The notes beneath the pieces were generated by a model, which made no database searches, was not told the DNA's origin, and saw nothing but the letters and a program-made list of their open reading frames with translations. A stretch of 64,000 nucleotides of DNA, taken from assembly GCA_023053545.1 (NCBI GenBank), contig JAKZAN010000004.1:2852001-2916000 (forward strand), written 5' to 3'. Source of the stretch: Lepidurus packardi. Taxonomy: Eukaryota; Arthropoda; Branchiopoda; Notostraca; Triopsidae. This document shows, in pieces, positions 5,172 to 34,787 of the stretch; positions within the stretch are counted from its first letter, which is position 1, and every line of letters begins with the position of its first letter. Both the position numbers and the translations under genes were made by a program.

Positions 5172-5279
5172 ATGGCCACTTCAGCAAGCACTCTTAGCAG
5201 CCCCTCCTGGTGGGGGTTCCTTCCACTTTATTTTGCCCTCCATCTGCCCCGCCCTCCGCGCTTAGCCCGGCCAGCCTGC

Positions 5280-13800: not shown

Positions 13801-14688
13801 ACACAGGTCTTTCTGTAAGGGAGGGCCTGCTTCGAGGCAATCGTTGAGACTCGGTTGCTCAGGGGAGGCTTGGCAAGAGCAGTCGTACACAATTCGAACT
13901 GGTGTAGAAGAGGAACTTTTAACAACAGGACGATGGGGCAGAAAGTGTGATTGAACCATCTGATCTGCGGAAAGGTAAGTTTCTTCAATAATACCTTTAT
14001 TCAATTGTTCGTTTATTATCGAGTCATAGGTTTCCAGAAGCTTAGTATTGCTAGTTCTTGATAAACGGCGAACAAGACTCTTGGTGCGTTGGAGGGCAGG
14101 CTCAAAATTGTTTGGAAGGGTGGGGTGCTCCCTTTTCCATGGTAGCTTCACGGAGTATCGCCCTTCTCTAAAATGAATCGAGGTTTTCCGATATTCTTCT
14201 ACATAGGGAACGTCTTCGTGGGACTTACCGGAAATCCCTATAGTTTCTAAGTCCCAAAAGCGTTCTAATGGGTCGGGAGAAGGAGGTGAATCTAGGATCA
14301 ACAGATTGGTTGTGTTATTAGGGTCTTCAAGAAAAGGCAGGGGTCCTGACAAGAGATATCCGAGCTTAGATTTTAACGCGCAAGGTCCGGGACCACGGAT
14401 GATTTCGTCTTCAACAAAGGACCAATAGTATTCCGATCCAATGAGTACGTCTACTTCAAATTTCCCATGTGCATGCGGATGCGCTAATTGCAAGTTAGTT
14501 AAATATGAAAGAGGAGTGAGAGATGCTTGAGTATGAGTTGTTACTGGAGCACAAATACTAGGCAAAACATGAGCTTTAAGAAAAATAAGTTCCCCAGAGA
14601 TTGTCTTAATGAAAAGTTCAACTATACCAAGTGAAACGGATCGGTTAGCTCCAGCGGTGTTAAGGTTAATTCTTTGGGGGATAATCAT
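10810..14688 (-). CDS. BEL/Pao Pol (protease-RT-RNase H-integrase)
   Basis: 1292 codons from the first Met, but the same frame is open upstream to about 14760. That upstream part contains DPGAQHS, the aspartic protease active-site motif, so the real protein starts by frameshifting from Gag or was split by an indel. Domains in order: protease tail, RT (AVMADIEKAFHQIEL; active site LYVDN instead of YxDD), RNase H, an integrase HHCC zinc finger (LHSGVN...SCVTC), and an integrase core with D in GVDFAGPL, D in LSDNARTF and E in GGMWERL. A BEL C-terminal domain (VGDIVHVHSEEKRIKW) follows. No internal stops. Confidence 0.93.
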   Translation of the reverse strand: MIIPQRINLNTAGANRSVSLGIVELFIKTISGELIFLKAHVLPSICAPVTTHTQASLTPLSYLTNLQLAHPHAHGKFEVDVLIGSEYYWSFVEDEIIRGPGPCALKSKLGYLLSGPLPFLEDPNNTTNLLILDSPPSPDPLERFWDLETIGISGKSHEDVPYVEEYRKTSIHFREGRYSVKLPWKREHPTLPNNFEPALQRTKSLVRRLSRTSNTKLLETYDSIINEQLNKGIIEETYLSADQMVQSHFLPHRPVVKSSSSTPVRIVYDCSCQASPEQPSLNDCLEAGPPLQKDLCGILLRFRLSKFAVMADIEKAFHQIELDESDRNFLSFMWPKELHNPNSPMRTFRFRVVIFGATSSPFILNAVLDHHLHSRPCQETQELVNSLYVDNVLASFPSCEETLSFYEISRSVLNEASMNLRNWITNCPTLLERLPLTEKSASTTEQKALGLLWNPHLDYFKIASSFNQNPTCTKRNILQTFASLYDPLGFLAPVTIRGKILLQTLWKEKLDWDTPLPANLEAVWNRLTSDLKLVREFTIPRNLGETRNSTVSIHVFADASPSAYGAVAYLVNDNSSLLVMSRNRVAPLKCISLARLELLALLIASRLLIYIIGELNFPPKANVRTFLWTDSKIALYWVLNNHSKDTFIFNRVNTINSVRSQHAVSLRYCISQENPADLLTRGVAASNLLKNKMWKFGPDWLISPHEWPAEETSGVTCIITSTSPLPMERSVLLATLSRCSSWEKAIRVIAYVFRFLTNLRNSLNRIMKISNALSLPELLSSERSVIREIQNASYRKEIDQLKDANRKGVTPLISQLDLFLDNKLIIRCKGRLSNAPLTYETICPILIPKGSLAAKLLMMKAHTTTLHSGVNATVSHLRKSYWIPAARQLARRVISSCVTCKKVMGNPYPYPPPPPLPKNRLQPFDAFHVTGVDFAGPLFVKLPNKESGKRYICLFTCSVSRAVHLELLPSLDSSSFLLGFRRFVSRRTLPSLMLSDNARTFESVAKDLTSLADDPELCKYLIDSRVEWRFIPKRAPWFGGMWERLIGLTKNTLKKVLGRRKLFPEELETIITEVESILNDRPLTYVSSSLSDESAITPSLLLYGKRTKLFPALPLSDPHDVTFSDDPESFSRLIRYRRETLTHVWNRFRNEYLTSLREFHQHCQKPFQNVINVGDIVHVHSEEKRIKWKMAKVLELKRSPDGYIRTANILMENGVANRPICKLYPLEVNKGTYDPTSSREQLMPQPSVSSTRRLPRLAAIKARDKIRLCMDERGETLAGAAGCLGENDKYCP

Positions 14689-14720
14689 GCAATTTAAACT
14701 ATTAGCTGTACTCTCTGTTA

Positions 14721-16301
14721 TTAAGGAATGTTGAGCTCCGGGATCAAAGAGAATGTTACTTGAGCTGTTCGTCCATTTGCTAATGCTTCGGCTTTAGCAG
14801 TTTGTAACAACGCGAGTTTGGGAGACTGTGAACCGACAGACGCAACTAACGGGTCAGAAGAGGTTACAGAAAGCTCAACTGGTCCGACTGTGTCAGTTTG
14901 AGGACAGGGGGAGTTAGTAGTGTCGGGAGTTTCCGTATGAATGCTTGTGTGGTGTCGTCGTCCACATTTGCGGCATTTTCCTTTAGAGGGGCAGTTAATT
15001 ACTCGGTGTTGCCCAGATGAAGAGAGACAGTTGAAACATAGTTTCTTTTCGCGAACTACTGCGGTACGTTCTTCGGGGGTTTTGTAACGCGGACAATTTG
15101 TCGGATAGTGGGTTTCTGTACAAAAAGCGCATTTAGGGGTTTTCTGTTTCTGATCTTGGGAAATAAGAAGAGCGGAAGCACTGCTATTTTCGTCTGGGGA
15201 GAGAGCTTGCTCCTTAGAGGTACCTTGTTTCTCAGATTTGTGGGATTGTTTTTTCACAGGGACAGTAACTTCGTGCTCGTCGTTGATTTCTCGCATCTGT
15301 AGTTCACGATATAGGGCTTGACGGAAGTTGTCAAGTGTCCAAATAGTTATATTATTTTCTCGACGTAAAGCTCGCCTAGTGTCATTTGGCAGTTTGTCGA
15401 GTAGATTGCATACCAGAAGATCACCGTAAGAGTCGGTATTCTTACCAAGAGTCTCCAGGCTACGAATGTAGGATTGGATAGTATCGTAAAAGAGACGAAA
15501 CGTGGACACATCGTGCGAGGGGCTGGGAATGGTATGAAAAGCACGTAGAAACGTAGCGATTATTTTGTCCTCTTGCCCATAACGTTCTTTGAGCAAAGAG
15601 ACAGCTAGCGGGTAGCTATCATTGGAGATAGTTAAGCCTTCAATTACGCGAGCGGGTTCAGGTCCAAGAAGCGAGTATAGATAGTTAAACTTACTAATTG
15701 GAGTTAGGGTAGGGTGCGCGTCTATTTCGCTTGAGAAAGAGTCCCAGAATCGTTTCCACTGCATTAGATTTCCATCAAATGTAATGAGAGAGAGTTTTTG
15801 TAGTTTACTTGACTTCTGATGGGGAAGAGGTGAAAACGGCGCTTGTGCATTTGTCAAGGATGGGTTTGGAGCATAAGCTCCAATGCTAGCGGGGGGAGAG
15901 ATCGCTTGAGTCACCGCAGAGGGGTTATGTACGGAGTCCATTAGAGACGCCACTTCAAGACGAAGGTCTAGGCAGGCATCTCTGGTCCGAGCTTCGTGAT
16001 CCTCATGGTCTTGAACGAGGGATGCTATTTCGTCATCCTGGGTGATTTCTAGCAGCTGCAGGTAAATCTGTTTGAGTCCAAGGAGTTTGTTTTCGATTTG
16101 CTGATGGTGATCTTGAAGCAGTAAAAGTTGTTTCCGAGGCACGTCCACATTCTGGATAAGATCAGGTGTCCTATTTAACATTTTAGTCAGGGAACCACGT
16201 TGCCCGGTACGCTGTGCGATAAGGAGATTCTTGTTGGAGGTTTCACCAGTGCGTTGAGTAGTAGGAGGGTTTCTGGATGATTCGGAAGCCATCCTGGTCA
16301 C
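14721..16301 (-). CDS. BEL/Pao Gag
   Basis: 526-aa structural protein that packages the element's RNA into cytoplasmic particles. The N-terminal part is helical and polar. The middle carries the LITFDGNLMQWKRFWDSF-type region of the DUF1759 gag family. The C-terminal third has Cys/His knuckles (CAFCTETHYPTNC, CFNC...C, CRKCGRRHH). The frame ends at 14721 inside the sequence where the protease motif starts in the -1 frame. The start at 16301 follows the primer-binding region by about 10 bp, so it is the likely start. Confidence 0.9.
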   Translation of the reverse strand: MTRMASESSRNPPTTQRTGETSNKNLLIAQRTGQRGSLTKMLNRTPDLIQNVDVPRKQLLLLQDHHQQIENKLLGLKQIYLQLLEITQDDEIASLVQDHEDHEARTRDACLDLRLEVASLMDSVHNPSAVTQAISPPASIGAYAPNPSLTNAQAPFSPLPHQKSSKLQKLSLITFDGNLMQWKRFWDSFSSEIDAHPTLTPISKFNYLYSLLGPEPARVIEGLTISNDSYPLAVSLLKERYGQEDKIIATFLRAFHTIPSPSHDVSTFRLFYDTIQSYIRSLETLGKNTDSYGDLLVCNLLDKLPNDTRRALRRENNITIWTLDNFRQALYRELQMREINDEHEVTVPVKKQSHKSEKQGTSKEQALSPDENSSASALLISQDQKQKTPKCAFCTETHYPTNCPRYKTPEERTAVVREKKLCFNCLSSSGQHRVINCPSKGKCRKCGRRHHTSIHTETPDTTNSPCPQTDTVGPVELSVTSSDPLVASVGSQSPKLALLQTAKAEALANGRTAQVTFSLIPELNIP

Positions 16302-16312
16302 GGCACCAAAAA

Positions 16313-16591
16313 TGTCACGAATAAATGTCCTGCGTTGTGTTGTAGAAGAGCAGACAACAGGATGGCTTTACCAAAATCATTTACCAATGTATTTGCTTCT
16401 TAACTCTACCACTATCAAAATACTACTAACTTCATCATCTGACTTTGCATATTGTTCTGGACATACGTCAACGTAAGTAAAACGAAGTATTTCTACAAAA
16501 AAGGAAGGAAGGACAACCACCGAAGGAAAAAGGGTCAAAAGAGTGTCAAGGGTAAGGGTCAAGGACAGTATTTGTCATTTTCACCAAGACA
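16313..16591 (-). repeat. BEL 5' LTR
   Basis: 279 bp, TG...CA, partner of 10564-10842. Immediately inside it on the minus strand is TTTTTGGTGCCGTGACC, a plausible tRNA primer-binding region of the TGGTGCCGTGACC type seen in BEL elements. The tRNA was not identified. Confidence 0.95.
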
Positions 16592-16596
16592 ACGGC

Positions 16597-19500
16597 AGGC
16601 GGGGTGACGGTTTCCATCTGGATAGTTAACAAAAGAAACAAGAAACGAGTTTTTGTATTAGCTTTCGAAATATGCAAGGTTTGTGATAATTACGTCTAAA
16701 AAATATTAAAAATAGCGAAATGAAGCGGGTAATTATTAGAGCGGCCAGTACAACTATTGAACCCATCTACAAATTAGGAGTTGGGTTCAATAGTTGTACT
16801 GGCCGCTCTATACCTAAAGCTGTTATGTGTCTTTTAACCCTAGCCTAATTTCCTTAGCAAGTTACCTCGTAACTTCAAGACGTTTCCCTTGCAATCCGTA
16901 GGCCTGGTTTCCTTCCCATTGACATTTATGTACTGTCATGAAGATCTGATCTACAAATTAGGAGTTCAGATCTTCATGACAGTACGACACTGGGCGGCAC
17001 GATGCCCGTGCCGCCCGCACGAATGGCAGCGGCCACGGAAGCGACTATAACAAGAAAGATAATCAGAAGAAATTAACTAAAAAGCTAATTATTTACTTGA
17101 CTTCCGGGCCATTGCTAATGGCCATGGCCACTTCAGCAAGCACTCTTAGCAGCCCCTCCTGGTGGGGGTTCCTTCCACTATATTTTGCCCTCCATCTGCC
17201 CCGCCCTCCGCGCTTAGCCCGGCCAGCCTGCATGGCGGCGACGGCAGCAGGCGGGGCGACGGTGGCAGGCGGAGCAACGGTGGCAGGCGGAGCGACGGCA
17301 GGCGGGGCGACGGCAGGCGGGGTGACGGCAGGCGGGGCGACGGCAGGCGGGGTGACGGTTTCCATCTGGATAGTTAACAAAAGAAACAAGAAACGAGTTT
17401 TTGTATTAGCTTTCGAAATATGCAAGGTTTGTGATAATTACGTCTAAAAAATATTAAAAATAGCGAAATGAAGCGGGAAATTATTAGAGCGGCCAGTACA
17501 ACTATTGAACCCATCTACAAATTAGGAGTTGGGTTCAATAGTTGTACTGGCCGCTCTATACCTAAAGCTGTTATGTGTCTTTTAACCCTAGCCTAATTTC
17601 CTTAGCAAGTTACCTCGTAACTTCAAGACGTTTCCCTTGCAATCCGTAGGCCTGGTTTCCTTCCCATTGACATTTATGTACTGTCATGAAGATCTGATCT
17701 ACAAATTAGGAGTTCAGATCTTCATGACAGTACGACACTGGGCGGCACGATGCCCGTGCCGCCCGCACGAATGGCAGCGGCCACGGAAGCGACTATAACA
17801 AGAAAGATAATCAGAAGAAATTAACTAAAAAGCTAATTATTTACTTGACTTCCGGGCCATTGCTAATGGCCATGGCCACTTCAGCAAGCACTCTTAGCAG
17901 CCCCTCCTGGTGGGGGTTCCTTCCACTATATTTTGCCCTCCATCTGCCCCGCCCTCCGCGCTTAGCCCGGCCAGCCTGCATGGCGGCGACGGCAGCAGGC
18001 GAGGCGACGGTGGCAGGCGGAGCAACGGTGGCAGGCGGAGCGACGGCAGGCGGGGCGACGGCAGGCGGGGTGACGGCAGGCGGGGCGACGGCAGGCGGGG
18101 TGACGGTTTCCATCTGGATAGTTAACAAAAGAAACAAGAAACGAGTTTTTGTATTAGCTTTCGAAATATGCAAGGTTTGTGATAATTACGTCTAAAAAAT
18201 ATTAAAAATAGCGAAATGAAGCGGGAAATTATTAGAGCGGCCAGTACAACTATTGAACCCATCTACAAATTAGGAGTTGGGTTCAATAGTTGTACTGGCC
18301 GCTCTATACCTAAAGCTGTTATGTGCCTTTTAACCCTAGCCTAATTTCCTTAGCAAGTTACCTCGTAACTTCAAGACGTTTCCCTTGCAATCCGTAGGCC
18401 TGGTTTCCTTCCCATTGACATTTATGTACTGTCATGAAGATCTGATCTACAAATTAGGAGTTCAGATCTTCATGACAGTACGACACTGGGCGGCACGATG
18501 CCCGTGCCGCCCGCACGAATGGCAGCGGCCACGGAAGCGACTATAACAAGAAAGATAATCAGAAGAAATTAACTAAAAAGCTAATTATTTACTTGACTTC
18601 CGGGCCATTGCTAATGGCCATGGCCACTTCAGCAAGCACTCTTAGCAGCCCCTCCTGGTGGGGGTTCCTTCCACTATATTTTGCCCTCCATCTGCCCCGC
18701 CCTCCGCGCTTAGCCCGGCCAGCCTGCATGGCGGCGACGGCAGCAGGCGGGGCGACGGTGGCAGGCGGAGCAACGGTGGCAGGCGGAGCGACGGCAGGCG
18801 GGGCGACGGCAGGCGGGGTGACGGCAGGCGGGGCGACGGCAGGCGGGGTGACGGTTTCCATCTGGATAGTTAACAAAAGAAACAAGAAACGAGTTTTTGT
18901 ATTAGCTTTCGAAATATGCAAGGTTTGTGATAATTACGTCTAAAAAATATTAAAAATAGCGAAATGAAGCGGGAAATTATTAGAGCGGCCAGTACAACTA
19001 TTGAACCCATCTACAAATTAGGAGTTGGGTTCAATAGTTGTACTGGCCGCTCTATACCTAAAGCTGTTATGTGCCTTTTAACCCTAGCCTAATTTCCTTA
19101 GCAAGTTACCTCGTAACTTCAAGACGTTTCCCTTGCAATCCGTAGGCCTGGTTTCCTTCCCATTGACATTTATGTACTGTCATGAAGATCTGATCTACAA
19201 ATTAGGAGTTCAGATCTTCATGACAGTACGACACTGGGCGGCACGATGCCCGTGCCGCCCGCACGAATGGCAGCGGCCACGGAAGCGACTATAACAAGAA
19301 AGATAATCAGAAGAAATTAACTAAAAAGCTAATTATTTACTTGACTTCCGGGCCATTGCTAATGGCCATGGCCACTTCAGCAAGCACTCTTAGCAGCCCC
19401 TCCTGGTGGGGGTTCCTTCCACTATATTTTGCCCTCCATCTGCCCCGCCCTCCGCGCTTAGCCCGGCCAGCCTGCATGGCGGCGACGGCAGCAGGCGGGG

Positions 19501-20780: not shown

Positions 20781-23700
20781 CAGAGCTGCATTGCGCTCGT
20801 TTTTCAACGAGCGCACTCGCTCGCGCGCTCTTTTACAATATGGCGAGCGGCGCTCGCTCACGCTCGCAAATTTTTAAGAAGAGCGCGCTCGCGCTCACGC
20901 TCGCGCTCGCGCTCGCGTATTTTTTTTTCAAATGATATTCGTATTATTAGTTGTAAAAATATATTGCTTTTATTTGTTTATTATTTACAAGCTTTACTAA
21001 TTTGTTTATAAACATTGTTGAATACAATTATCTTAATAGCTCTTAAATAATGTTTATTGAGTTATACTTGTAAAGTTTTTTAATGAGGGAATAATTAAGG
21101 AGGCTTCTCCAATTCTGGTGAATTTTAATTTTTCATACTTCCCTTTTCTTTTTTTAGCTGTCACAGCGTCCAGTAATTATTGGTAATAAACTGTTAAAAA
21201 GGAACTGATTTACGTTATTGCCATAATTTCTTCATAAAACTTTGTTCAACCTGAATATTGCGGTGCCGTCTACATTCACGTGTTTGCGTTTGTTTTCTTC
21301 TCCAAGAAAGAAAAACGATTGGATCTGCAATATACAGAAACTGATTAAAGTTGCACTCGTTTAACAAACTCATCTTTAGTTTCATTCAATTGTTCTATTG
21401 AATATAATGGTTGAAAGATACGTTTTAACCAGCCCTTTAAAGGACTAGCAAGCGGACATCAATATGAGGACAATAGTTGAAACTGATATCTTAAGAACAA
21501 TTTGTCAATTGAAAGAAAGGTATAAAAGTAAGAACAGATTACTCACGAACACAGAATTTCCTTAAAAGAAGATGCGACGGGCGTAAATGCCAAGCATGAG
21601 CTAAACAAAAACATAGGGTACGACAAAGGGTCAAACATTCTAGGTTTTGTATTAGAACCAATTGCACTTACATGAGCAAACAATATAGTCTCTAATTAAG
21701 ACGCCAATTGCACTAATGCACACGCAAAATTTTTCAGATTAAAAACTTATTGCACTTCAAAACGCACAAACAAGACTGTTTAGAATTAAAAATCAAACAT
21801 ACTTCAACGCAGAACAAAAATTAACCAATATAGTATTGATCCCCACAACGTTTTCTTTCGGCATCTGATGTTTAGTTAAATGTTAGAACAGTTCGAAAAT
21901 TGCACTTGTAGCACGCAAAATCCAGCGGCCAGAGCGATTAATAGGCTGGGCCCTATAGGCCTACGAAAATTTCCGGTTACGCCAACCAAATCGGTAAAAA
22001 ACTGGAGAAATTAAAGATGATCGTGGCATTGCGAAGATAAACTGCCTCTGTCTACTGCAAGCAGAAGTCATTTTGAACACTTATTCAAAGAACTTATTTG
22101 AATATGAATATAATTTTGTCAATGGTCCCATTTCCTATCTACGCTTCATTTCCCACCGGTTGACAAACTCGTAGGGTGTCTCAAGCATTGAAGATCGAAC
22201 TAATAAGGGAAGTGCGTATTCCCATTTCTAAATTATTTCGGTGGTTGAAGTTTCCAATTTCTGTAGCATTTATCGTTTATCTTCATAAACGTAATCTTTT
22301 CAAATTTATCGTCAGAAAGGCTTGACCTTTTTGGCGTGAAAATTAATCCTGCCGTACTAAACAGTCGTTCACACGCTGCAGAGGAGGGCAAGGCTGCGTT
22401 GTACTCACTACATGAAACCATAGCCAAGTTATTAAAAAATAGAAATAAAGATACGTGGTACGCATAAACTTACATGAAAATTTCTCTGATGGTCGGAAAA
22501 CGATTAAGCTGGCTGAAATCTGAAAACTGCTCCGTAATTTCTTCCGCTAAGTATTTGTCGACTTCTTCAAGTTCGATGGTTGTCCTTTTACGGAACCCAT
22601 CAAAAAGTTTCATCTTTTTCCTACGGGATGGGCTTACGGATTCGTCACTAACATTACTCCCATCTTCTGGGTCGCTTACAAATGTTCTGGGAAAATCGGT
22701 AAAACTGAATGATGAGTTATTTGTGAATGTTAAGTAAGTTCGACAAACTCACCTGTCAGAGGATTTTCTTCTGTTAACTTCTTCCCGAAAGCGACTTACA
22801 TCATCGGCCCTTTGATCCACGTCGTCGATCCAGAGGCTTTTAAAATGCGGATCACAAATGGAGGCCAGTCGCAAATACGGATCATTGAATAGGTGACCAA
22901 AACGATTTCTTATCGCAGTAATCAGAGTGGTTACTAAAACATTGCAATGGCAAATGCTGGAATCCCGGGTACATTCCCTAAGTTTTTCCAGTATTATACA
23001 AAGTGTCGGAAGGACGCAGCTAGCAGACATGTGCTCTTCGTGTTGAAAAACGTCGAGTGCTTCGGACAATGGTTGTAAAATTTTTATCATCTCTTTCAGA
23101 AGCTCTTCTTCTTGAGGTCTCAGAACAGGAACACCTTCTCGCGTAAAGACTTCCTTCACTGCATCGTTTTTATGGGTTATGAAATGCTTTACCCTTAGAA
23201 GGGCATCGTAATACGAATTCCATCTTGTTTTGTTGGGAATAACGAACATCATTCCAAGTTTTTCTCTAATGAAATCTGCCGAACAAGTGCTACGCGACTG
23301 CGCATTCCATACTGCCTGTAGTTTTCCGTCAAGCGCACGCTTCATTTTCTTGAATAACGGATTGGTTATCTTGCCAACGTCTGTCGTGGCTATCAGATTT
23401 AGCAGATGGCAGTTACATCTCATGTGACGAGGCAATACTAAAGATTCGTCTTCCAAGATTTCGTCTGAACCAGTTGGATCATATTCAGTAGGATTGCTTT
23501 GAGCTTCCCTGGACAGAATTTCTGTTAGGTTGATGAATAAGGCTGGATCCGTTTCCTCTTCTTCTTCTTCTTTATCTTCCGTGTTATTTTTTTCGGGAAT
23601 CTTTTGAGCTTTATCGTACTGTCCTTCTCCAAATACTCGAAAGCTCTTAATGAAATTGGAGCCGTTATCAGTGATGGTACACTTCACCTTCCCCGCAATG

Positions 23701-25238
23701 CTAAATTCGTTGTGTAAAGCGTCGATGGCACGGGCCAATACGTCGTAGGTATGTTTACCTATTACTCGTCGGAGGCCCAAGCACGCACTGCGTCTCGTTA
23801 AGTCGTCCCCTACCCAGTGCACAGTCATTCCCAAAAAACTTCTGTTATGGGAAGACCAGCAGTCGGCCGTCGTGCACACATACTTTGCCTCCTTCAAAGA
23901 CGATATCAAAAGTTGTTTCCTGGCAAGATACTGCTTGGTAATTAAGTCGCTATAAAAATTCCGACCCTTGATTTGTAGGTCTCCGATGAAGGGCTTAAGA
24001 AGCGATTGAAATGCAGGCTTACAGACAACATTGATGGGATTTATATCCTGGATAATGTAGTCCTGAAAAAGAAAATACTTCATTTGACTAACATATGCTT
24101 CAGGTTTAAATAAAAAAGGTTACGAACTACGATCAAATCGTCCAAGAATGCTTGTGATACTGGCCGCTTCTTCAAGCTAGAGAAGGACTCAAGTGTGCTT
24201 TGCGTTGAATTCTTGACGGCGACAGTCCTTTCGGTTTCACTTGGTCGTTCCGAGCAGGCTTCCATGAAGTTCTTCAGATTTTCCTTTGTATGTCTTGTCT
24301 AATATAAAAGCAACAGTTTTAATAGGAAGTACGTAAATAAGCAAAAATTTATAATCCGTTGATTATAGTCTTACCTGAATATGTCTTTTGAGATTGTACA
24401 GAGAGTTGTTGCTAACACAGAGGGGCTTTGCGCCCCAAGAACAGTGTCCAATTGCACAGCGGTATAAGGACAAGGACGGATTATTAGTATGTGCGCCTTG
24501 AAAGACAAAAAAATTTTGCGGGACGTAAACTCTTTTAACTTTGGACGGCTCAGGCTTGGATGCACAATCCTTAAACAAAGTTGGTGCAGCTACATCCACT
24601 ACGCAATTCGAAATAGATGAATCTGGACTAGCATTCCTGGTTGTATTCGGTTCTGCAGTCGGCGCGGAATTCGCTGATGAATTAAGTGCTGAAATTCCTG
24701 TTACATTCGCCATGACGCACTAAGAAAACAAAACCAGTAATAACTACAGTTAACATTACAAGTCATGAACTATAAATGAAATGCAAGTAATAATTAATAT
24801 CTTACTTTATGATCGATGTACAGAAGTGTAAAGTAAATAAAGGTAGCCAAACGAGACGCAATTGGTGCAGCAGTGTATTTTTTTAATAACAAGACGACAG
24901 GTTTAACTGTCGAATAAGCTGTGACAACGGAGGTTAGTAGTGGTGAATGTGGGTAGGTGGCTGTCCTGGGCTTGGTCTGTTTTACAGTGGCGTCAATTTT
25001 GAAAATTTTAGAGGTTTTATTTAGTGTTGATTTTTTAAAGAAACGGCTGCATTGTACGGACGATGTAGTATGCGCAACAACCGCATGATGGCGCCACTAT
25101 CGCGAGCGAGCGCTCGTTTGCTTTGCGCTCGCGCTCGCGCTCGCGCTCATTCCAAACGAGCACTCGCGCTCATCGCTCGCGAAATTTTGATCGCGCTCGC
25201 GAGTGCGCTCGAATTCGAGCGCGCTCGCGACAGCTCTG
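20781..25238 (-). mobile_element. hAT DNA transposon, apparently intact
   Basis: 4458 bp with ends CAGAGCTG and CAGCTCTG, flanked by perfect 8-bp target duplications AGAAGGGC (20773-20780 and 25239-25246). Both subterminal regions (20790-20925 and 25090-25230) are dense in CGCTCG/GCGAGCG words in both orientations, likely transposase-binding sites. A five-exon minus-strand transposase gene occupies 22233-24713. About 1.45 kb of AT-rich noncoding DNA follows the gene (20930-22232) and about 0.5 kb precedes it. Matching TSDs, matching termini and an unbroken reading frame suggest a young, possibly autonomous copy. Confidence 0.93.
22233..24713 (-). CDS. hAT transposase (five exons)
   Basis: Exons read as 24713-24375, 24298-~24128, 24062-22753, 22686-22474 and 22407-22233. 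Summed length is 2208 bp, 735 aa, in frame throughout; only the second donor is uncertain by a few bases. Exon 1 encodes a BED-type zinc finger (CAIGHCSW...LKRHIQ). Exon 3 encodes the hAT catalytic core with VCTTADCWSSHNRSFLGM and TITDNGSNFIKSF. Exon 5 encodes the dimerisation region LPSSAACERLFSTAGLIF. Flanking terminal repeats and TSDs agree. The protein excises and reinserts the element as a dimer or oligomer in the nucleus. Confidence 0.9.
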
Positions 25239-25246: not shown

Positions 25247-28200
25247 CTATTGACTTAACTTGGCTAGCACTTCCTAGACTTTTCGTAGAACAGCCTCCAA
25301 TACCCTATATAGGAGATTATCTCTTGCGGATATATAAAGTGGAATCAGCATAGGCAAAAGATGTAATTCTTCGCCAGCGCTCACGCAATCTACGCAAGCT
25401 CTTGTAAAAGTAGCCAAGTAAAACAAGTTCCTTTAACTATAATCTAAAAAGCCCAACACTTTCATTGTCTTTTCATTTTAATTCTTGCGATCAAAATAAA
25501 TGTCCTTCACTTTTGCTTCTTTCGTTCTTCACGACCTTCCCATACCAATACCGCGAAAATAGGGGGTGGAGGATACTTGGAAGACTTTTGACCGACTTCT
25601 GCAAACAATCTACGTCTATTCTCTCTGTCGTGTCAATAAACGGCGAAAACGGACCACATTTCGAGTTTTTATTTCAGAGTGGTAAATATTTTGAGAATTT
25701 TACTCACTTCTGTTGGGTTTTCATCTGTACTTCTTTTTGGTGGGCCATATCAAATCCAAACTGGGCTCATTTATTCTAGTTTTTTTCCAAATGAAGTCCA
25801 AATAAAGGTGAAAAAGACGCCCAATCCTTCTCCATGAGTTCAATAAACATCTCGTTCCGAACCTGAATTAAATTTTAGCCATCGATTAAGCTTTCCAATT
25901 CTTGAGATTGTTTCAAGTTCTAAGAACATTGGTTAATTTCCATTAAACCCCGTGTAGACACCCTAATTCTCATTAACTGAAGCGCAAGTTGACAAATAAG
26001 CACATTTCGCAAACCTCGGAAAAAGTTGTACCCAGGTAGACTACGTTTGAAAAAATAAATACTGTGGTAGTAGGATGAGTCACGTACGAGAGCTAGAAAA
26101 GGCAAGTCGTGTACCAGAGTGCGAACAGTAAAGTCGAGTTTTTACTTTTGATCCGTGATTACTTTAACCCTGTGTAACGAGTGAATTTGCTTGCCATACA
26201 GAATAAAGACACTTAGCCTATATTAATACAACATTAACCCATGCTTATAGAAGCTGCTTATTCTTCGAAGTCGGTAAGTTAGCTCACCGTGTATTCCCTT
26301 CCTGTCTTTTCTTCCCACGTTCCGACGGTCCACGAAAACCAAAAGCTCATAACTCCCGATCGAATTTGACAGGAAGTAGCAACGTCTACAAAATCTTTTC
26401 TAACTATTTTGAGATTTTTCCTTATTTTTGCTAGTGCCCGCATCTGCTCATTGCTTTTACACTTCTTACCAGTTTTGCAAATTTGGCTATAATAAGATTA
26501 TTAGCTTTTATACGAAGAATGTAATGTTATGTGGCTTAAAACATAGCGTTGCATAGAAGGCGGAAGACACTAGATAGCCGACGGTGTTCCTCCATACGTA
26601 GTAGTGTAAAGAACAATCCCTACACAATTATAGCTGACCACGTACAGCTCACTTCCAAGATGCCAAAAATCAAGTATCAGATCAGACTTCCGACTTCTCT
26701 TTTCTCTTTCATTCACACCGTTTACTTCTGACTGTACATTTCCTTTTGTATATTGTTTAGCCATTCTGCACATTCCGATCAAACGTTTTATAAACGTTCC
26801 TCTTCTTCTTCGGGTCCAATGGCCCTTGAGGTCTCACGCGCGTTCTCTTGTTAATATAATCGAATCCGCCAAGCACCCAGTCTTGATTAGACGCTGATGT
26901 AGATTACTGACCAATTTAACCGAAGAATAGTTTGAATAAACTTGCAGGATCTTACCGTTGTGCCAAGACCAAATCCACTCGGCCCAAACAATCAAAACAA
27001 TCTTATTTTGCCCAAAACAGTTTCCTACAGTAGTATTCCTTAATTATGCTACCCTTGGCGTAAGCTGATCACTTCCTTGACTTGCTGTATACAGCCTCCA
27101 ATTCTCTAGAGATTACCTCAGGCGGATAAAAACTTTTTGGATTCAGGATAGGTACAAGCACAGATTTCTTCGAGCAATCACACAATCTACTCGAGGTCTT
27201 GTAAAAAGTAGTCTAGTAAAACAAGTTCCTTTAACAAATCTAAACGCCCTACATTTGTCATTGTAATTCTTGTGATCTAAGGCAAGCGTCATGTAGCTCA
27301 TTTATAAGTTAATCATGGTTGCTGCCTGACTTTGATAATTAGCTATAATGCAGCAGTCCAAACGAACCGCTGGTCTATTCAGTAAAGCACAACACAGGAA
27401 CCTTTTTTCCCAAAACCATTGTTTAAGCAAATATAAACTGACTGTATTCGAAACCGTAGGAGCTTATATACGGGTAGTTCAGGACGCAAATATAGAAAGT
27501 ACAATACAACAATAAGTCGTCCGAGTGCGGTCAATCAACAGTACAAGTACAAGTAGAATAAGGTCAGATCACAGACTTACGTCAAATACCAAACAGAATC
27601 CCCCAACACCAAGGTTAATTAATACGAATACACATCCTTACACAAATACAAGATTCCCTTTCTTTCCGGGGCATACATTTATCAAGGATACGATCATACG
27701 CTTTGAAACTCTCGATATGGCCGTCACGAAAAAAATGCTTTCCTATTTTAGAGCTCCGGAAATTCTATGGGTCAAAGTAATATTCGTTACACCATAAGTA
27801 ATAAGTTTACCAGTCATACTTGGTGTCTTACAAGAAGAATGGAACGAAGAAAAAAGTCAGCAGCAGCATCATACGTTCCCAAAGAAAAGTTTCGAACTTC
27901 TCGTCCTTCATTTTTTGTATTTAAGGTTTTTATTTTTTACTTAAGGTATTAATTAAAAGCATAATTCGAGCAATGGTCTTCTTAGTTAAAACTTGTTACT
28001 AAACAACAAAGGATGAGGCTGTTGGGGTAACATTCAACTTTCACTGTACGTTTTTAGTCATATCAATATCCATTCCGTTTTATTTCTCAGTTGTCAAAAA
28101 CCATACTGAACACATAATATTTATTCTTTTGGTTCTAAGCACCCTCGGGCGTCAGCCGCGGCAAAGCATGGGGAGAAAAATACAGATCACGTGCAACACT

Positions 28201-28264
28201 GTTGGTTTATGTGTTTTGCTGCTTTTAAGCCAACTCCTACAACATGCCTAAACCCGCTTTTATG
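25247..28264. other. Repeat-rich intergenic DNA, no gene seen
   Basis: 25258-25510 and 27060-27290 are diverged copies of one another (shared CAGCCTCCAAT, AAAACAAGTTCCTTTAAC, TGTAATTCTTG-like words). 26285-26445 is a third copy of the dispersed repeat at 19875 and 20215. No ORF here has a recognisable domain. Confidence 0.6.
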
Positions 28265-28423
28265 CGAGTTGCCGCGGATTGCCGCGGTCTGGAAAAACTG
28301 GAAAGATGGGGTTGCAATAGCTTAACGTGACGGTCCAGAGCCTCCTGAACGGCCTCGAGCCGGGCCTCGGCGCGTCGCCCAGTCTCCTGGAGGGTTTCCT
28401 CCATCTCCCCCAACCTTGGTTTC
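28265..28423 (-). other. GC-rich coding-like stretch after the poly(A)
   Basis: On the minus strand this reads as an open stretch with EMEETLQETGRRAEARLEAV, continuing as a predicted coiled coil and ending at a stop near 28265. GC-rich codon use matches the Gypsy gag/pol rather than the AT-rich DNA beyond it. It is probably a further retroelement segment resuming after the inserted viral-like part. Confidence 0.45.
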
Positions 28424-28446
28424 TTTTTTTTTTTTTTTTTTTTTTT
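28424..28446 (-). other. Poly(A) tract ending the viral-like segment
   Basis: Twenty-three consecutive T on the plus strand (A on the coding strand), 176 nt after the stop of the nucleoprotein-like ORF. The coding-strand sequence just before it reads GATGAGTAGTATAAATC. It looks like the tail of a reverse-transcribed mRNA, internal to a larger retroelement-derived block. Confidence 0.7.
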
Positions 28447-28622
28447 GATTTATACTACTCATCGTCGTCCTCGTGATCGGGATTGTAAAGATGAGCCATA
28501 ACCGCGTTTTTAACTAAAGGAAATTTTATTGGTGGTTGTAAGGGTGGATTAGCACCTGCCTAACAGGTTCCCGTAGGTTCTTTTACCCCCATTACATAGT
28601 TCTCTCACCTTATTTTAACCCC

Positions 28623-29945
28623 TCATGAAATATCCTTTCCATCAACACTGATCATCTCGTCATTGTAAGTCAGTGATGCACGTGCGTCGAGCGTGTCACC
28701 GTCTGCAGCTAGTGCGGCTCGGTGTTCCAAATACTTATCGATTAAATTCTGAACGATTGTCCTTTGCCACCCAATATCATTGAAATCCATGAAAGTCCTT
28801 GATTCCGCCAGGGATGATTTACCCAGAATTTTGATACAAACCATTGATCCCACCTTCGCCAATTTTGGGAACTTGGTCGCAGCTACCTCATTTCGCTCCC
28901 TCATTGTACCGAAGCCCCCATAAGGATCAATCTTGTTATCAGGAAGAGTTAGCTTGTCAAGGACGACCATAAATGATGCCCATTCATCTGGAAACAGTCC
29001 ATTAATTTTCTTCCAGGGAAAATCTCGGACACCTTTCATGGCCTCCAATAAGGTTATCACACTTGTCATTCCAAAGAACTTACACTGGTTCACCAGATTC
29101 CTCAGCCCGAGAATTTCAGGTGGTGATGATCTAATTAGTTCTTCTATAGCATCACGCATGTAGAGTCTTGATTTTCCCTGACTAGTATGAGCGTAAATGG
29201 TTGAAAATACAGTGGGATCAGCAGGCCATGGAATGTCCGCCCTCGTGAGGTTACACTGGGATACGTATTTGTCGAATTTTTTACGATTGGAAGAGCCTGA
29301 ATAAATCAGTGCGTACCACAGGTAGAAGGTGGATGGTTTCACCCACAGTATTTTCGTTATACGTTGATGAGCCGTGGATGTTATAGTAAACACTGTGATG
29401 TGGTTCAATATTTCAGCAAGAGGGATAGCTGTTCCCAGCACGGCATCTATATCAGCATAGGTTCCACAGTCTAGGGCTAAATCAGAGTCAGGGGGAGTCC
29501 TTTCCGCTGCAGATTTGCGGGAGTTATTGAGGATCATTAATGCCAGGTCAGAGGAGATGTTAGTCGGGATGGTTTTTCCGTTAAGTGCTCTGACTCCGTT
29601 CTTTATGGCATTGAACATCTTAGTGATATATTCACGAGCTGCTGCTTGTGACAAATACACCATTCGGTCGTAGTGAACAGGCCCGGTGTGCTCATAGAAC
29701 CAGGCTACAGCAAGTTCTGCCTCAAGAGGGGATGCCCCATATGTATACACACAGTTAAGCCATGTATAGAATGCCAACGCAAGAGTCTGGTACAACGTTG
29801 TCATCTCCGTAAAATCATCAAGACCAAGATGGTAGAGCGCAAATGGTGTTTGGATAGCTTCTCCAACTATCATTCGTCGAAAATGTTGCGCCTTAGTGAT
29901 CTGTACAGTTGCCCAACGCCCGGGCGTGTACCCTGTTTCATCCAC
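28623..29945 (-). CDS. Candidate endogenous RNA-virus nucleoprotein-like ORF
   Basis: Intact 440-aa ORF directly downstream of a truncated Gypsy pol and in a different frame. It has no retroelement motif, no zinc finger, no signal peptide and no membrane segment. It is a mainly helical, globular-looking protein with an acidic C-terminal tail. Length, composition and the poly(A) about 180 nt after its stop resemble a monocistronic mRNA of an arthropod negative-strand RNA virus nucleoprotein (mononegavirus, perhaps chuvirus-like). That family call is an inference from general appearance; no diagnostic motif was verified. It could instead be an unknown accessory protein of the retroelement. Having no internal stop while the neighbouring gag and pol each have one is notable. 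Confidence 0.45.
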   Translation of the reverse strand: MDETGYTPGRWATVQITKAQHFRRMIVGEAIQTPFALYHLGLDDFTEMTTLYQTLALAFYTWLNCVYTYGASPLEAELAVAWFYEHTGPVHYDRMVYLSQAAAREYITKMFNAIKNGVRALNGKTIPTNISSDLALMILNNSRKSAAERTPPDSDLALDCGTYADIDAVLGTAIPLAEILNHITVFTITSTAHQRITKILWVKPSTFYLWYALIYSGSSNRKKFDKYVSQCNLTRADIPWPADPTVFSTIYAHTSQGKSRLYMRDAIEELIRSSPPEILGLRNLVNQCKFFGMTSVITLLEAMKGVRDFPWKKINGLFPDEWASFMVVLDKLTLPDNKIDPYGGFGTMRERNEVAATKFPKLAKVGSMVCIKILGKSSLAESRTFMDFNDIGWQRTIVQNLIDKYLEHRAALAADGDTLDARASLTYNDEMISVDGKDIS

Positions 29946-29947
29946 TT

Positions 29948-31504
29948 CTACGCCCTCTCGTTCATCGTGTATTGGGCGACTTTACGTTTTTCTGTAGCTT
30001 TTGGGTTAACTGTCTCCAAGATGGTGATAAGCCTTTCCCATCTGGGATCTACCCGTTGCTCTTTTTCAACATCAGCTAAAAGTGTGTCAACTGCGTGAAC
30101 AGCAATCCCAAACACTACCGGGCCGTTGTCGTCGCCTTCTCCAGCTGGGGGGTCAACGGGGTTGCGTGACAGAGGGTCAGCATCATTATGAACCCTCCCA
30201 CTCCGATGTACGATTTGAAACTCGTATTCCATCAGAGCGAGGGCCCACCTAGCTAACCGCCCTGTGGACTCCCGTTTGGTCATTAGCCAACACAATGCGT
30301 GATGGTCTGTGACAGCTTTAAAAGGTTTACCCCAAACATACGGCCTAAATTTCTTTACGGCCCATACGAGAGCTAAGCATTCTTTCTCGGTGGTGGAATA
30401 ATTCCGTTCACTTTTATTAAGGAGCCGGCTCGCATAAGCGATAACCCGCTCTTCGCCCTCTTGGCGCTGTGCCAGAACCGCTCCTATGCCAAAATCACAT
30501 GCGTCAGGATGGATCTCAAATTCACCATCCAACTCTGGGTGAGCTAGAATAGGCGCCGAAACAAGAGCTTGCTTGAGGTCTTCAAAAGCAGACTGTTGCT
30601 CGACACCCCATGCAAATGGTGTATTTAATTTTGTAAGCCTGGAGAGAGGTTCGGCCCTAGCTGAAAAATCTTTCACGAATTTTCTGTAGTACGAGCATAG
30701 GCTCGTGAAACTACGAACCGCCGTAAGATTTGCCGGCGTTGGAAAGTCCGTGACGGCTGTTAATTTACTGTCATCCGGCCTAATACTCTCCTGGTCCTCT
30801 ATGTGCCCAAGCACCTGAACAGTTTCGCAGCCAAAGTGACATTTGCTGGGTTTTAACTTCAGTCCTGCTTTACCTAGACATGCCAAAATGGCGTCAACAT
30901 CGGCCACATGCTTCTCGAAGGTTTTGGAGAAAATAACGACATCATCAAGGTAGATTAGACAAATTTGCCACTTAAAACCTGCTAAAATAACGTCCATCAT
31001 CCTTTGAAAGGTGGCTGGAGCGTTACAAAGCCCAAATGGCATTTTCGTAAACTGGTATAGACCATCCGGTGTTATAAATGCCGTTTTCTCCCTGTCTTGG
31101 TCCTTTACTCCTACTTGCCAATAACCTGACATAAGGTCCAAGGTGCTGAAAAATTTCGAACCTTGCATGGAGTCCAATGCGTCATCCGTCCTGGGCAAGG
31201 GATAAACGTCCTTGATCGTGACGGAATTTAGCTTACGATAATCTACGCAAAAGCGCCAACTACCGTCTTTCTTCTTGACCAACACAACGGGGGAGGACCA
31301 TGGACTGTTTGATGGTTCTACCACCCCTGCTTCTATCATCTCCTCCACCTGCTGCCTAATCAGCTCTTTTTCCCTGTAGGCGCTGCGGTAGGGAACCTGC
31401 GAAACGGGATTTGCGTTACCCGTATCTATTCCATGTTCTACCACGTTGGACGCACCTAGATCCTCTGAACCCCTTGCAAAGCACATGCGATGCTTACTCA
31501 GCAC
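29948..31504 (-). CDS. Gypsy RT-RNase H (broken pol, no integrase)
   Basis: 518 codons from the first Met. The same frame is open upstream to the nonsense codon at 31634. RT motifs are in order: VLVKKKDGSWRFCVDYRKLN, LDLMSGYWQV, MPFGLCNAPATFQ and LIYLDDVVIFS (YLDD catalytic pair). RNase H follows, with an HPDACDFGIGAVL-type region and VTDHHALCWLM. The frame ends just after KRKVAQYTMN, where Gypsy elements normally run into the integrase zinc finger. Here an unrelated ORF starts within a few bases. Confidence 0.9.
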   Translation of the reverse strand: MLSKHRMCFARGSEDLGASNVVEHGIDTGNANPVSQVPYRSAYREKELIRQQVEEMIEAGVVEPSNSPWSSPVVLVKKKDGSWRFCVDYRKLNSVTIKDVYPLPRTDDALDSMQGSKFFSTLDLMSGYWQVGVKDQDREKTAFITPDGLYQFTKMPFGLCNAPATFQRMMDVILAGFKWQICLIYLDDVVIFSKTFEKHVADVDAILACLGKAGLKLKPSKCHFGCETVQVLGHIEDQESIRPDDSKLTAVTDFPTPANLTAVRSFTSLCSYYRKFVKDFSARAEPLSRLTKLNTPFAWGVEQQSAFEDLKQALVSAPILAHPELDGEFEIHPDACDFGIGAVLAQRQEGEERVIAYASRLLNKSERNYSTTEKECLALVWAVKKFRPYVWGKPFKAVTDHHALCWLMTKRESTGRLARWALALMEYEFQIVHRSGRVHNDADPLSRNPVDPPAGEGDDNGPVVFGIAVHAVDTLLADVEKEQRVDPRWERLITILETVNPKATEKRKVAQYTMNERA

Positions 31505-31633
31505 TTCTCTCAGCGCTTTCCTTTGATTATCGTCTAATCGATCAGATATACAGCTATCCAGGGTCTCGTCAGTAACTGCTCCTTTCTCTACTTCAACTGT
31601 GTGGGGTACCTGGTCTTCAACACTGCCTAAAAC

Positions 31634-33343
31634 TTACCCCGCAGCCACCCATTGGGCCTCCGGACTAAAGTTTACAAGCATTACCAGACCGTACCCACCC
31701 TGAAAGGTAGTTATGCTTCGACCTAAGCTAATCCCTTTTTCGATTAATAATCGCTTCTCGGGTTCTACTAGGAAATCTTGAGCTTCGTCTTTAGACGGCG
31801 GTGTTAGTTTACGCTCGCTCCATTTGTCTGAACCCTGGTTCGCAAGGTTGACGTGAATGGGCATTCCCGATCGCGGGGTAATTTTGTGGGCCTGCAAGGA
31901 GACTAACCTAAGCGGCCTACCTTGCTTCTTTTGACTTTTTCCTTTCGTGGCCAGCAACAGGCAACTAAAAGGATTATCGATCTCGCTGACCGTGTCACGG
32001 TCGTTTCCAGCTTTCTCGGTTGTCAGGATAGGTTTACACTCGGGACTTTCTTTATGGATTTCTAAGGGAACTTCACAACAATCTGCGCCTCCTGGGTCCC
32101 ATGACTCGTCCTGACCTAGCTTTGCCTCGTGGCACTCTACATTCCCCACCGCAAGCTCGTGGGGATCCTCTTTCTCGGTAGAACCAGTGCTTTTGGTTTC
32201 GCCCTCGGCGGATGTTAACACGGAACTAGTGGGAAAATTCGAATTCGCGCCTTGGTTTCCCGTTTTCGTGGGAGGGGCAACTAGCAGAGCTCCGTTGACT
32301 GCCTCGCGGGGAGATCCCTGGAAATGAAAAATGCACATGGAACGCAAGAAGGGTGGCACTAGAGAGAGAGGTGTAGAATGTCTTCCCATCTCTTCTTGGT
32401 ATTTAGCTACTAGAGACATAGATACGGGTAAGCTCTCCTTTACATCAGTATCTCGCCGTATCTCCAGAGGAATGCCCCAACTACCTTTATCAGTGCTCGC
32501 GCCCATACGCGCCTCACTAGGGGAGGTGATTTCCCGTTGTTCCTGGATCGCGCATACCACGGTGTTAAGCTCGCTAGCTACATCCTGAATCTGCCTAACG
32601 AAGGTCAGGGCCTCCTCACAAACGGTATCGCGTGCACATTCCTCGTGGCGTATCTCAGCTTGCCCTGCGGGGGTTTCCCGTGGGGCACTCATGCCATTGG
32701 CAAGGACTTCAGTACATTGAGGAACCAGAGGCGCCACCTGTTGAGGAGTTTTTAAACAGTCAGGGAGACTAGTTCGTCCTCGAAAATTTGAGGCTGAGAT
32801 CGAAACGGGGCTTCCCCGCAGCAGTATCTCGGGTTGAGCAAGGCTTGGCACGTCCTGGTCATCCGAGAGCGGTGTTACGGGAGCCACTATAGCGCAACCA
32901 GCCGGCGTACATTCCTCAATTTGATCTTCAAGCTCTCGTTCTAGGCTCGAAACTTTCTTTGTCTTCCCTACCCTTTTATCCTTCATTCTCCGATGACCTG
33001 CTAGGGTAAAACCATCTTCCCTATATCGGAGGGTCACGTCACCCAATTGCCTAAGCAAGTCATTACCTACGATCAGTTCTGCCAAACCGTTGTTAAAGAC
33101 AACGGCTTTCGTATATACCTCCTTCCCTGCGAGTCGAACCCCAATATTCACACCACCTCGAATCTGTGCACGCTCGTCGTTTGCTACAACTATCTCGGGT
33201 CCCTCCCAGGCTACCAGCTGCGCCTGGTTACGTAAGGCCCAATCTTCGGAAACCACGCTCACGGCCGCACCAGTGTCGATGATGGCTATTGCTTCTACTC
33301 CATTACAAATTACTCGCTCTCTAACTAGGTTTGGACAGAACAC
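31634..33343 (-). CDS. Gypsy protease domain and linker (broken pol)
   Basis: The N-terminal part is a retropepsin: IIDTGAAVSVVSEDWA with the DTGA active site, and ELIVGNDLLRQLG as the second conserved segment. A long polar linker without a recognised domain follows. The frame ends at TAA 31636-31634 and then resumes in the same frame into the RT. This is therefore one pol gene with a single nonsense codon, and the 569-aa product would lack RT. Confidence 0.85.
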   Translation of the reverse strand: MFCPNLVRERVICNGVEAIAIIDTGAAVSVVSEDWALRNQAQLVAWEGPEIVVANDERAQIRGGVNIGVRLAGKEVYTKAVVFNNGLAELIVGNDLLRQLGDVTLRYREDGFTLAGHRRMKDKRVGKTKKVSSLERELEDQIEECTPAGCAIVAPVTPLSDDQDVPSLAQPEILLRGSPVSISASNFRGRTSLPDCLKTPQQVAPLVPQCTEVLANGMSAPRETPAGQAEIRHEECARDTVCEEALTFVRQIQDVASELNTVVCAIQEQREITSPSEARMGASTDKGSWGIPLEIRRDTDVKESLPVSMSLVAKYQEEMGRHSTPLSLVPPFLRSMCIFHFQGSPREAVNGALLVAPPTKTGNQGANSNFPTSSVLTSAEGETKSTGSTEKEDPHELAVGNVECHEAKLGQDESWDPGGADCCEVPLEIHKESPECKPILTTEKAGNDRDTVSEIDNPFSCLLLATKGKSQKKQGRPLRLVSLQAHKITPRSGMPIHVNLANQGSDKWSERKLTPPSKDEAQDFLVEPEKRLLIEKGISLGRSITTFQGGYGLVMLVNFSPEAQWVAAG

Positions 33344-33399
33344 ACATAAGAGGGGGATCTCAATGGCCTGGGCGACTCCGCCCCCCGGAGCCGCCCCTT

Positions 33400-34443
33400 C
33401 TAGTTTGCCGAACCAGAATCTTCACGATCGCTATCCGAGCGTCGTCCTGATGGTCTATCCGATTTTGACTTGCCACCCTTATCTCTGCTCTGGGATTCTT
33501 TACTCCCTTTCCCCTTCCCGATTCCCTTGTGGTCTTGACCACACTCCCTGGACTCAGGGTTGACACAGTAACGTGCAATGTGCCCTGGTTTCTGACAGCG
33601 ATAGCAAATAGGTTTCCCATCATGCGTGCGGGAATTTGGGGAGTAAGAACGATTGGGAGAATAGGGACGGCCAACCTTACCTTGCGGTTTCGCAAAACTT
33701 TCGCGGAACTGCTGGAATTCACCGGCGAGTTTGCTGAGAGCCGCCGCAATGGCACTGGATTCCGATCCTGAGCTGGGTATAGGATTTTCGCGACCCGTCG
33801 GGGCAAAAGGGGTAAACGACCCTTGCCCTCGCACACCAACACCAGCCACCGCGGCACGTTTTTCGGCTTCTTCGCTACGGATCACGTTGGTCCACCAGGA
33901 TTGAGAAACTCGGCTCCTTTCCTGGCTGAACTCAAGCAAGTTAGCCTCTTCAAGGAACTTGTCACACGTTTGCACGTTTAAGCGTGACAACGGCTCCACT
34001 AGACCAGGCCGTAGGCCTCGGAAGAGATGATTGAGTTTGTCATATTCGGACATGCCGGGATTAATCTCCCGGCACAGGTTGACTACGTCCATGTAATACT
34101 CGTTGACACTCTCTTCCGAACGCTGCACCCGCATTTGCAACTTGGCGTTGCTGCGGAAAACTCGACCTTGGGGGACGAAAAACTATCGGAATTCCTCTTT
34201 TAGTTCATTCCAGGAGGTAGGGGGTGGGCCATCAAGGGGGTACCGGTTGGCGTACCATGTATCGGCCATACCGTCCAGGCTCGTAGCCAAACACTCCAGC
34301 TTATCTTTCTCATTCCATCCATTAAAAATCGCCACCTGCTCATATTTTTGGAGGAACCGCATAGCGTCCTCATCTTGAGCCCCAGAAAATTGTGGGGCGC
34401 TCACCGCCTTACGCAACCTACCGGGCACACCGGGGTTTGCCAT
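33400..34443 (-). pseudogene. Gypsy Gag, one in-frame stop
   Basis: The reading frame begins upstream (open to ~34640), with a likely Met at 34443. It runs through a capsid-like region (DAMRFLQKYEQVAIFNGW, then SWNELKEEF), an in-frame TAG at 34185-34183, and continues in the same frame with RVQRSEESVNEYYMDVVNL. It ends with a CCHC knuckle CYRCQKPGHIARYC and a basic tail. The single nonsense codon would stop capsid synthesis. Confidence 0.85.
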
Positions 34444-34787
34444 GGTTGATGCGGGGCTGTTTGGCTCGGCGAGGAGGTCTACGAGTTTCACAACGGATCC
34501 TCGCGGTGAAGGGGTGGTACGGGCGGTTTCAATAGTCGACCTTTCAATCGCCTCCAGCTCTTCCCGTACCGCGGAGAACTGGTACCTCCTGCGAGGGGTT
34601 TCCGGGCTGGATTCCGGCTCGCTAGGAACGGCGTAGCAGGTGAGGTCAACTCACCCTATGTAGAAGTTTGCTGGAGACGGAGGGAAATAAAAACGTTACA
34701 TATTGGTCGACTACAAGACTAGGCTCCGCTTCAAGCCTTATGTACTCCTTTTTGCGAGCTCATAACGTTCCCAACCCTGATAGAGAA

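Follow-up and report, generated by a model that had tools for sequence, protein, structure and literature searches.

Probable repeated capture of nucleoprotein-like mRNAs by env-bearing Gypsy elements in the genome of Lepidurus packardi

We analysed a 64,000-nt window of the genome of the notostracan Lepidurus packardi (contig JAKZAN010000004.1 of assembly GCA_023053545.1, positions 2,852,001 to 2,916,000; G000:C3:2852001-2916000 of 108.6 Mb), whose minus strand carries a Gypsy retrotransposon joined to a 440-aa nucleoprotein-like open reading frame (ORF), hereafter N, or N_A in this chimera (chimera A). An earlier reading, made from the sequence of the window alone, had described a Gypsy pol ending right after RNase H, an ORF starting 3 bp further on, a 176-nt stretch, 23 A residues and GC-rich sequence, and this arrangement was confirmed, with the 176-nt stretch at 28447-28622 and 2 nt between the stop codon of the reverse transcriptase (RT)-RNase H frame and the ORF. 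Pfam matches of RVT_1, RT_RNaseH and zf-CCHC to the Gypsy part were above cut-off and that of gag-asp_proteas (4e-6) was just below. The 5′ long terminal repeat (LTR) and the first ~340 nt of gag are gone, and there are internal gaps relative to the parent element. A repeat of other origin cuts off the opposite end, and in the other copies of the same chimera (C5a, C5b, C2a and C3t) the GC-rich segment runs into ~300 bp of pre-env sequence and then into env. The N_A frame is not a chance one, because it is free of stops over 440 codons in 4/4 long copies of chimera A and has relatives of ~80% protein identity elsewhere in the genome. Its earlier description as intact did not hold: the frame opens with GTG and reaches its first in-frame ATG at residue 25, and its relatives carry ~20 extra N-terminal codons including an ATG. 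We read it as open but 5′-truncated, with the native ATG and ~20 codons missing.

The integrase-bearing parent called for by the sequence-only reading was found in the same genome. Element L041 has 491-bp LTRs with 99.8% identity between the two, is bordered by ATAT at each side, and encodes gag, protease, RT, RNase H and integrase (two overlapping frames) followed by an env remnant; its matches to the window chimera break at 34647 and 29952-29957. Integrase domains above Pfam cut-offs were located downstream in all three parent copies read (L041, L042 and L070), and the Pfam scan detected no integrase domain in the 518-aa RT ORF of the window. The 718-codon env ORF of copy C5a matches Baculo_F (3e-19), which places the element among env-bearing (errantivirus-like) Gypsy elements. 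Scoring covered 40 of 136 candidates, and among the scored matches 20 of the 24 copies spanning the junction point lacked N, with 4/24 continuing into it. Judged from these copies, this Gypsy does not normally carry N as an accessory or env gene; the earlier reading had depended on N not being usual in full-length copies.

A protein search of the genome with N returned 17 matches, 17/17 of which were scored and placed, and no exon structure was seen at any of the 17 in the assembly (Table 1). The chimera of the window is present at five sites and is one of several captures. Chimera A has the order RNase H, N, a run of 23-27 A residues, pre-env sequence and env. In chimera C5c an LTR is followed by 3 nt plus a 13-nt filler, N, an inverted RT piece and, from another subfamily, an env end and an LTR; the 5′ LTR of C5c serves at the same time as the 3′ LTR of copy C5a of chimera A. 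Each C26 unit reads LTR, ~70 nt, 5′-truncated N, T15-16, env end and LTR piece, and C3x, in which N is divided in two by other sequence, reads gag-like ORF (Retrotrans_gag 8e-4, below cut-off), N, A21 and an ORF read as env-like. N was in sense with Gypsy in 4/4 chimera types (A, C5c, C26 and C3x, the last relying on the sub-cut-off gag match), and LTRs flank C5c and C26. Flank likeness of the 97-98% type was found for A (96-98% to L041), the LTR before C5c and the env end of C26, and was not reached by the 3′ part of C5c, the 5′ LTR of C26 or C3x. In the remaining structure, C2b, N lies antisense within a Gypsy, ends in A39 and has a perfect 38-bp duplication on both sides; the A39 and the target-site duplication mark it, on its structure, as a retrocopy of the long interspersed nuclear element (LINE) type. 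Together, the four Gypsy chimera structures and the LINE-type retrocopy lend good support to the earlier proposal that RT switched from Gypsy RNA to a polyadenylated foreign mRNA. As a separate observation, the 25,000-bp contig C26 contains at 4865-16825 four near-identical units, each made up of LTR, N and env end and arranged head to tail, which may reflect tandem LTR sharing or an assembly effect.

Table 1. Features of the window chimera and sites of N and of rhabdovirus N genes in the assembly (unprefixed positions are those of the window)
Feature	Position	Strand	Basis or remark
Gypsy gag-protease-RT-RNase H part of chimera A	29951..34647	-	Pfam domains; 96-98% to parent L041
RT-RNase H open frame, stop at junction	29948..31504	-	RVT_1 3e-37, RT_RNaseH 7e-41
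Junction 1 (approximate), Gypsy to N	29937..29960	-	possible GATGAA microhomology; out-of-frame fusion; ~20 N codons lost
440-aa nucleoprotein-like ORF (N_A), GTG start	28623..29945	-	ORF list; protein search of genome
Conserved 3′-UTR element	28518..28596	-	~75 nt almost invariant in five N lineages
35-nt junction-like module (ACAACCACC...TTAAAAACG)	28505..28539	-	matches N 5′ end in C3x and C5c
14-codon ORF (MAHLYNPDHEDDDE) directly after module	28455..28499	-	sequence reading
A23 run	28424..28446	-	A23-A27 in other four A copies
GC-rich segment, 95 bp, 3′ of A run	28329..28423	-	comparison of A copies
Repeat of other origin cutting off the chimera	25596..28328	.	99.3% to start of contig C26
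Chimera A sites (5)	window; C5:11287333 (C5a); C5:11311566 (C5b); C2:6129203 (C2a); C3:2831886 (C3t)		C3t, N 3′ end only
Chimera C5c	C5:11282594		
C26	tandem array, four units of ~3126 bp		two matches per unit through a frameshift
C2b	C2:890547		
Rhabdovirus N genes	C2:856625-870837 (array); C3:2833100; C6:277615		

Comparison of the copies showed shared ends of N. In C5c and C3x N begins at the same base, ACAACAACCC, which we take as the mRNA 5′ end, and in C2b and C3x the A run stands at the same position past the 3′ untranslated region (UTR), except for T8 versus T4. Chimera A extends beyond that position: the 35-nt module of the N 5′ end occurs again there and is followed by ATG and 14 codons up to a stop, and then by A23. 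The 3′ junction has an A run in A and C3x but not in C5c and C26, and the 5′ start was common to C5c and C3x and internal in A and C26. At junction 1, parent and chimera A agree through CAATACACGATGAA and the N frame is open through GATGAACGAGAGGGCGTAGAA; the GATGAA common to both sides may be a 6-nt microhomology, and a switch point inside N would explain the missing native start of N_A.

The module stands before N in C3x and C5c and after N in A, and its alignment score was reached by 0/2000 shuffles in each of three comparisons. Of 13 genome-wide matches to the junction motif, 12 were at N copies and the remaining one (C3:6599353) was probably due to chance. Polycistronic negative-strand viruses carry gene-start and gene-end signals before one gene and again before the next, and the module around N, by analogy, looks like such a gene junction; the 14-codon ORF following it is a possible start of the next viral gene. 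The 33-base core of the 3′-UTR element had 12/12 genome matches at N copies, and RNA folding of the element in five copies gave z values between 0.78 and -2.53; its conservation is firm in sequence but not in structure. This element may help the N RNA into Gypsy particles.

The history of N was compared with that of the elements around it. Between N lineages the proportion of synonymous differences (pS) was 0.81-0.93, which is saturated, and that of nonsynonymous differences (pN) was 0.06-0.16; C2b and C5c had a synonymous divergence (dS) of 0.30 and a nonsynonymous divergence (dN) of 0.012. Pairs with fewer than 80 shared codons (C3x and C26 pieces that barely overlap) were left out. For the env beside N, pS was 0.045 over 82 codons between A and C26, where N had 0.83-0.89, and 0.29 over 141 codons between A and C5c, where N had 0.91; three stretches with an internal stop (two of C2a and one of C5c) were left out, and the C3x element was too divergent for this comparison. 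N, saturated but conserved in protein beside a far closer env, thus diverged under strong constraint elsewhere. This divergence pattern is that of endogenous viral elements (EVEs) and argues against a gene evolved inside these Gypsy elements. Within chimera A, the six pairs of the four long copies differed by 0-2 synonymous and 3-12 nonsynonymous changes, a weak test given the few changes, in which no purifying selection was visible, and selection on N looks relaxed after capture. Judging from structures and divergence, there were at least four, and probably five, separate captures of N.

Taken together, these results make it probable that N is the nucleoprotein gene of a negative-strand-like RNA virus, captured by recurrent Gypsy template switching onto N mRNA. 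An env-bearing Gypsy would take up the polyadenylated viral N mRNA, minus-strand synthesis would proceed from the env end of the Gypsy RNA, and RT would jump onto the N mRNA at its poly(A) tail and copy N. It would then return to Gypsy RNA, inside N at the possible 6-nt microhomology in the window chimera and at the very 5′ end of the N mRNA in two other chimeras. The chimeric cDNA would be integrated, and the window chimera would later have spread to five sites by copying or duplication. Separate captures would stem from different strains of the virus, one of them through LINE-type retroposition. The viral part of this account is supported indirectly by the selection history, the repeated junction-like module and the mRNA-like ends, all of which fit a negative-strand virus.

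The same genome contains recognisable rhabdovirus genes, which entered it more than once and in this way make a viral reading of N more likely. The rhabdovirus N on C3 (L028 reverse complement 850-4614, C3:2828000-2837500), ~45-50 kb from the N of the window, has an open 444-codon frame preceded by gag- and protease-like ORFs whose Pfam matches are all below cut-offs. A direct fusion of rhabdovirus N with N_A at C3t was considered and dropped, as other repeat sequence lies between them. In the C2 array, the rhabdovirus N unit read at L069 (G000:C2:866300-868300, minus strand) ends in an exact 18-nt Gypsy primer-binding site, TGGTGCATCGACCGGGAA, which occurs twice in L069 and elsewhere stands 2 nt after the LTR in L018, L022 and L041. 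Eighteen nucleotides is the length remaining when tRNA-primed cDNA is completed. The L069 end looks as if a Gypsy tRNA had primed on viral RNA, and the presence of this site at rhabdovirus N ends suggests that the same Gypsy machinery acted there. A rhabdovirus L fragment was also present in two copies (Mononeg_RNA_pol 2e-74; vesicular stomatitis virus L, E 9e-115), the first of which has Gypsy RNase H upstream, resuming downstream, and 39 bp of target on both sides (one mismatch). In this region (L053, L054, L067 and L068; C2:10937400-10952003) the L-interrupted Gypsy has, after its integrase, a 381-aa P-like coiled-coil ORF with no Pfam match above cut-off; the downstream part of that element follows both L copies, and the second L copy has other, opposite-strand ORFs upstream.

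Two sets of observations weigh against capture of a viral mRNA by template switching, one concerning the junctions and the other the identity of N. C5c lacks poly(A), an inverted RT fragment follows its N, and its own env end and 3′ LTR are 74-84% identical to L041. C26 has T15-16 instead of A at the N end, ~70 bp of filler before N and a 5′ LTR 87% identical to L041. The gag match of C3x is below the Pfam cut-off and its env reading has no Pfam support. Junction 1 could be set against the parent, as the sequence-only reading had proposed for both junctions, but junction 2 has no parental definition, because in chimera A the first 266 bp of the queried segment past the A run were matched by nothing but the five A copies. 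The rhabdovirus L fragment was dropped as support for template switching, its 39-bp target repeat fitting insertion with target-site duplication. Two simple switches do not give the inverted RT piece, the T run and the filler of C5c and C26, and some of these junctions could have arisen through nested insertion and DNA rearrangement.

It seems unlikely that such events, in repeat-rich loci, produced all of the chimeras from viral N copies in place of template switching. The inverted RT piece beside C5c, the tandem arrays on C26 and C2, the other elements cutting in, and the duplications of insertion type that flank C2b as well as the rhabdovirus L fragment speak for such an origin. Other features speak for template switching instead: the sense orientation in 4/4 Gypsy chimera types, the A run at the N-to-element junction in two types, the identical 5′ start in two, and, in A, the loss of integrase in place of a clean insertion.

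The searches for a relative of N were uniformly negative. N matched 0 Pfam families at E 1 and nothing in the PDB by sequence or profile, and hhalign of N against the rhabdovirus N gave a probability of 0.5% with a thin profile. No relative was found among 5.8 billion proteins with either the window ORF or alignment A2 (~8,000 best candidates scored each), nor in three protein scans of IMG/VR. Two AF2 models of N, considered in view of the two-lobed, RNA-clamping helical fold of mononegaviral nucleoproteins, were mostly helical with one hairpin, each at a low pLDDT confidence of ~35. In addition, IMG/VR gave no match to the 3′-UTR patterns of N, Rfam gave none on 28300-30000, and a viral fold search with the second AF2 model gave none at E 0.001, a result not used further. 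Rhabdovirus N of this genome served as the control: it matched Rhabdo_ncap (1e-78) and found 9 proteins, 8 of them virus-named, in the protein database, so that the null for N there means no relative sharing enough 5-residue words, and not an empty database. Nucleoprotein families other than that of rhabdoviruses were compared solely through Pfam, the PDB and the database searches. The RNA-virus-like character assigned by the sequence-only reading therefore stood as far as selection history, module and mRNA-like ends go, whereas the profile search and structure prediction that it had proposed brought no sequence, profile or fold match to nucleoproteins. Accordingly, we infer the identity of N as a viral nucleoprotein and claim no membership in any virus family.

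These null results would suit a gene of an unseen retroelement lineage, structural or accessory, shuffled among Gypsy copies with no RNA virus involved. Every N copy found adjoins element-like sequence, N precedes the env end in A, C5c and C26, and the Gypsy around C5c belongs to another subfamily (env end 74-76%). We nevertheless regard this origin as quite improbable, in view of the pS values of 0.045 and 0.29 in env beside 0.83-0.91 in N, by which N did not evolve along with the elements. The insertion points also differ, C2b shows that N RNA existed free and polyadenylated, the repetition of the module on both sides of N has a polycistronic look, and no Pfam domain was found in N. A host gene whose mRNA was retrotransduced, like oncogenes by retroviruses, is very improbable: LTR elements do capture cellular mRNAs and an AATAAA lies near the 3′ end, but none of the 17/17 matches in the assembly, which may be incomplete, is a parent locus that has introns or stands free of elements. 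This origin would also require several paralogs saturated at synonymous sites, and it would be odd for a cellular gene to have a 35-nt module both at its start and behind it.

Elsewhere in the window, a 444-aa ORF on the minus strand at 22749-24083 has DNA relatives on C26 and was read as hAT-type transposase-like, with 0 Pfam families matched. Contigs C43, C52 and C214 contain long stop-free COX1 frames that need no mitochondrial code and are probably bacterial contigs in the assembly. The assembly also has TTAGG repeats at the end of one contig and a COX1 pseudogene.

Several known systems resemble parts of this one. Recombination between lymphocytic choriomeningitis virus (LCMV) and the intracisternal A-particle (IAP) retrotransposon in mouse (Geuking et al., via the review PMC3205384) likewise produced integrated joints between an LTR retrotransposon and the RNA of a segmented ambisense virus; it was seen in cell culture and infected mice and involved partial genomic sequence, and no endogenous LCMV element had been found according to that review. 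In contrast, the present case is read from a genome assembly, is repeated, involves an N mRNA with natural-looking ends, and includes one chimera at five sites. The Anakin elements of mosquitoes (PMC7642597), Pao elements with a chuvirus glycoprotein, also carry an RNA-virus gene inside LTR boundaries that multiplied with the element; they go back to one or a few captures, some of the elements being complete and probably autonomous, and that study counts one nucleoprotein region among 428 chuvirus EVEs. Here, the gene is nucleoprotein-like, there were several captures, integrase or most of gag-pol was lost, and no selection on N is visible after capture. Viral integrations in Aedes are enriched beside Gypsy, with template switching mentioned (PMC5497376), and the study of Jingchuvirales glycoproteins in arthropods reports no clear case in which Gypsy or Copia had captured the glycoprotein (PMC10084718). 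The association in these two studies mostly concerns flanking elements or fragments, as described there, whereas the junctions here are directly readable. Endogenous bornavirus-like nucleoprotein (EBLN) sequences with LINE-1 hallmarks (PMC3205384) share with C2b an N-like mRNA, a poly(A) and a target-site duplication; in the present genome, LTR elements contain the remaining captures, and N, for which Pfam gave no match, cannot be recognised as bornaviral. We found no description of a nucleoprotein gene captured by Gypsy in a literature search of titles and abstracts, with most subscription journals outside its scope.

The chimera first described is real, was misdescribed in part, and belongs to a larger set: an env-carrying Gypsy lineage apparently took up nucleoprotein-like mRNAs several times. 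We suggest, tentatively, that this lineage has been a recurrent vehicle writing RNA-virus N genes into the germline, among them those of a virus lineage without a relative in the databases searched. The entry of non-retroviral RNA viruses into germlines has often been argued from retrotransposon proximity; here, one genome allows comparison of the parent element, several captures, RNA ends and a LINE-type copy, which makes the template-switch model checkable. The analysis may expose a virus lineage with putative gene-junction signals from fossils alone and, if the viral reading is true, the chimeras would show one way in which RNA viruses enter animal chromosomes.

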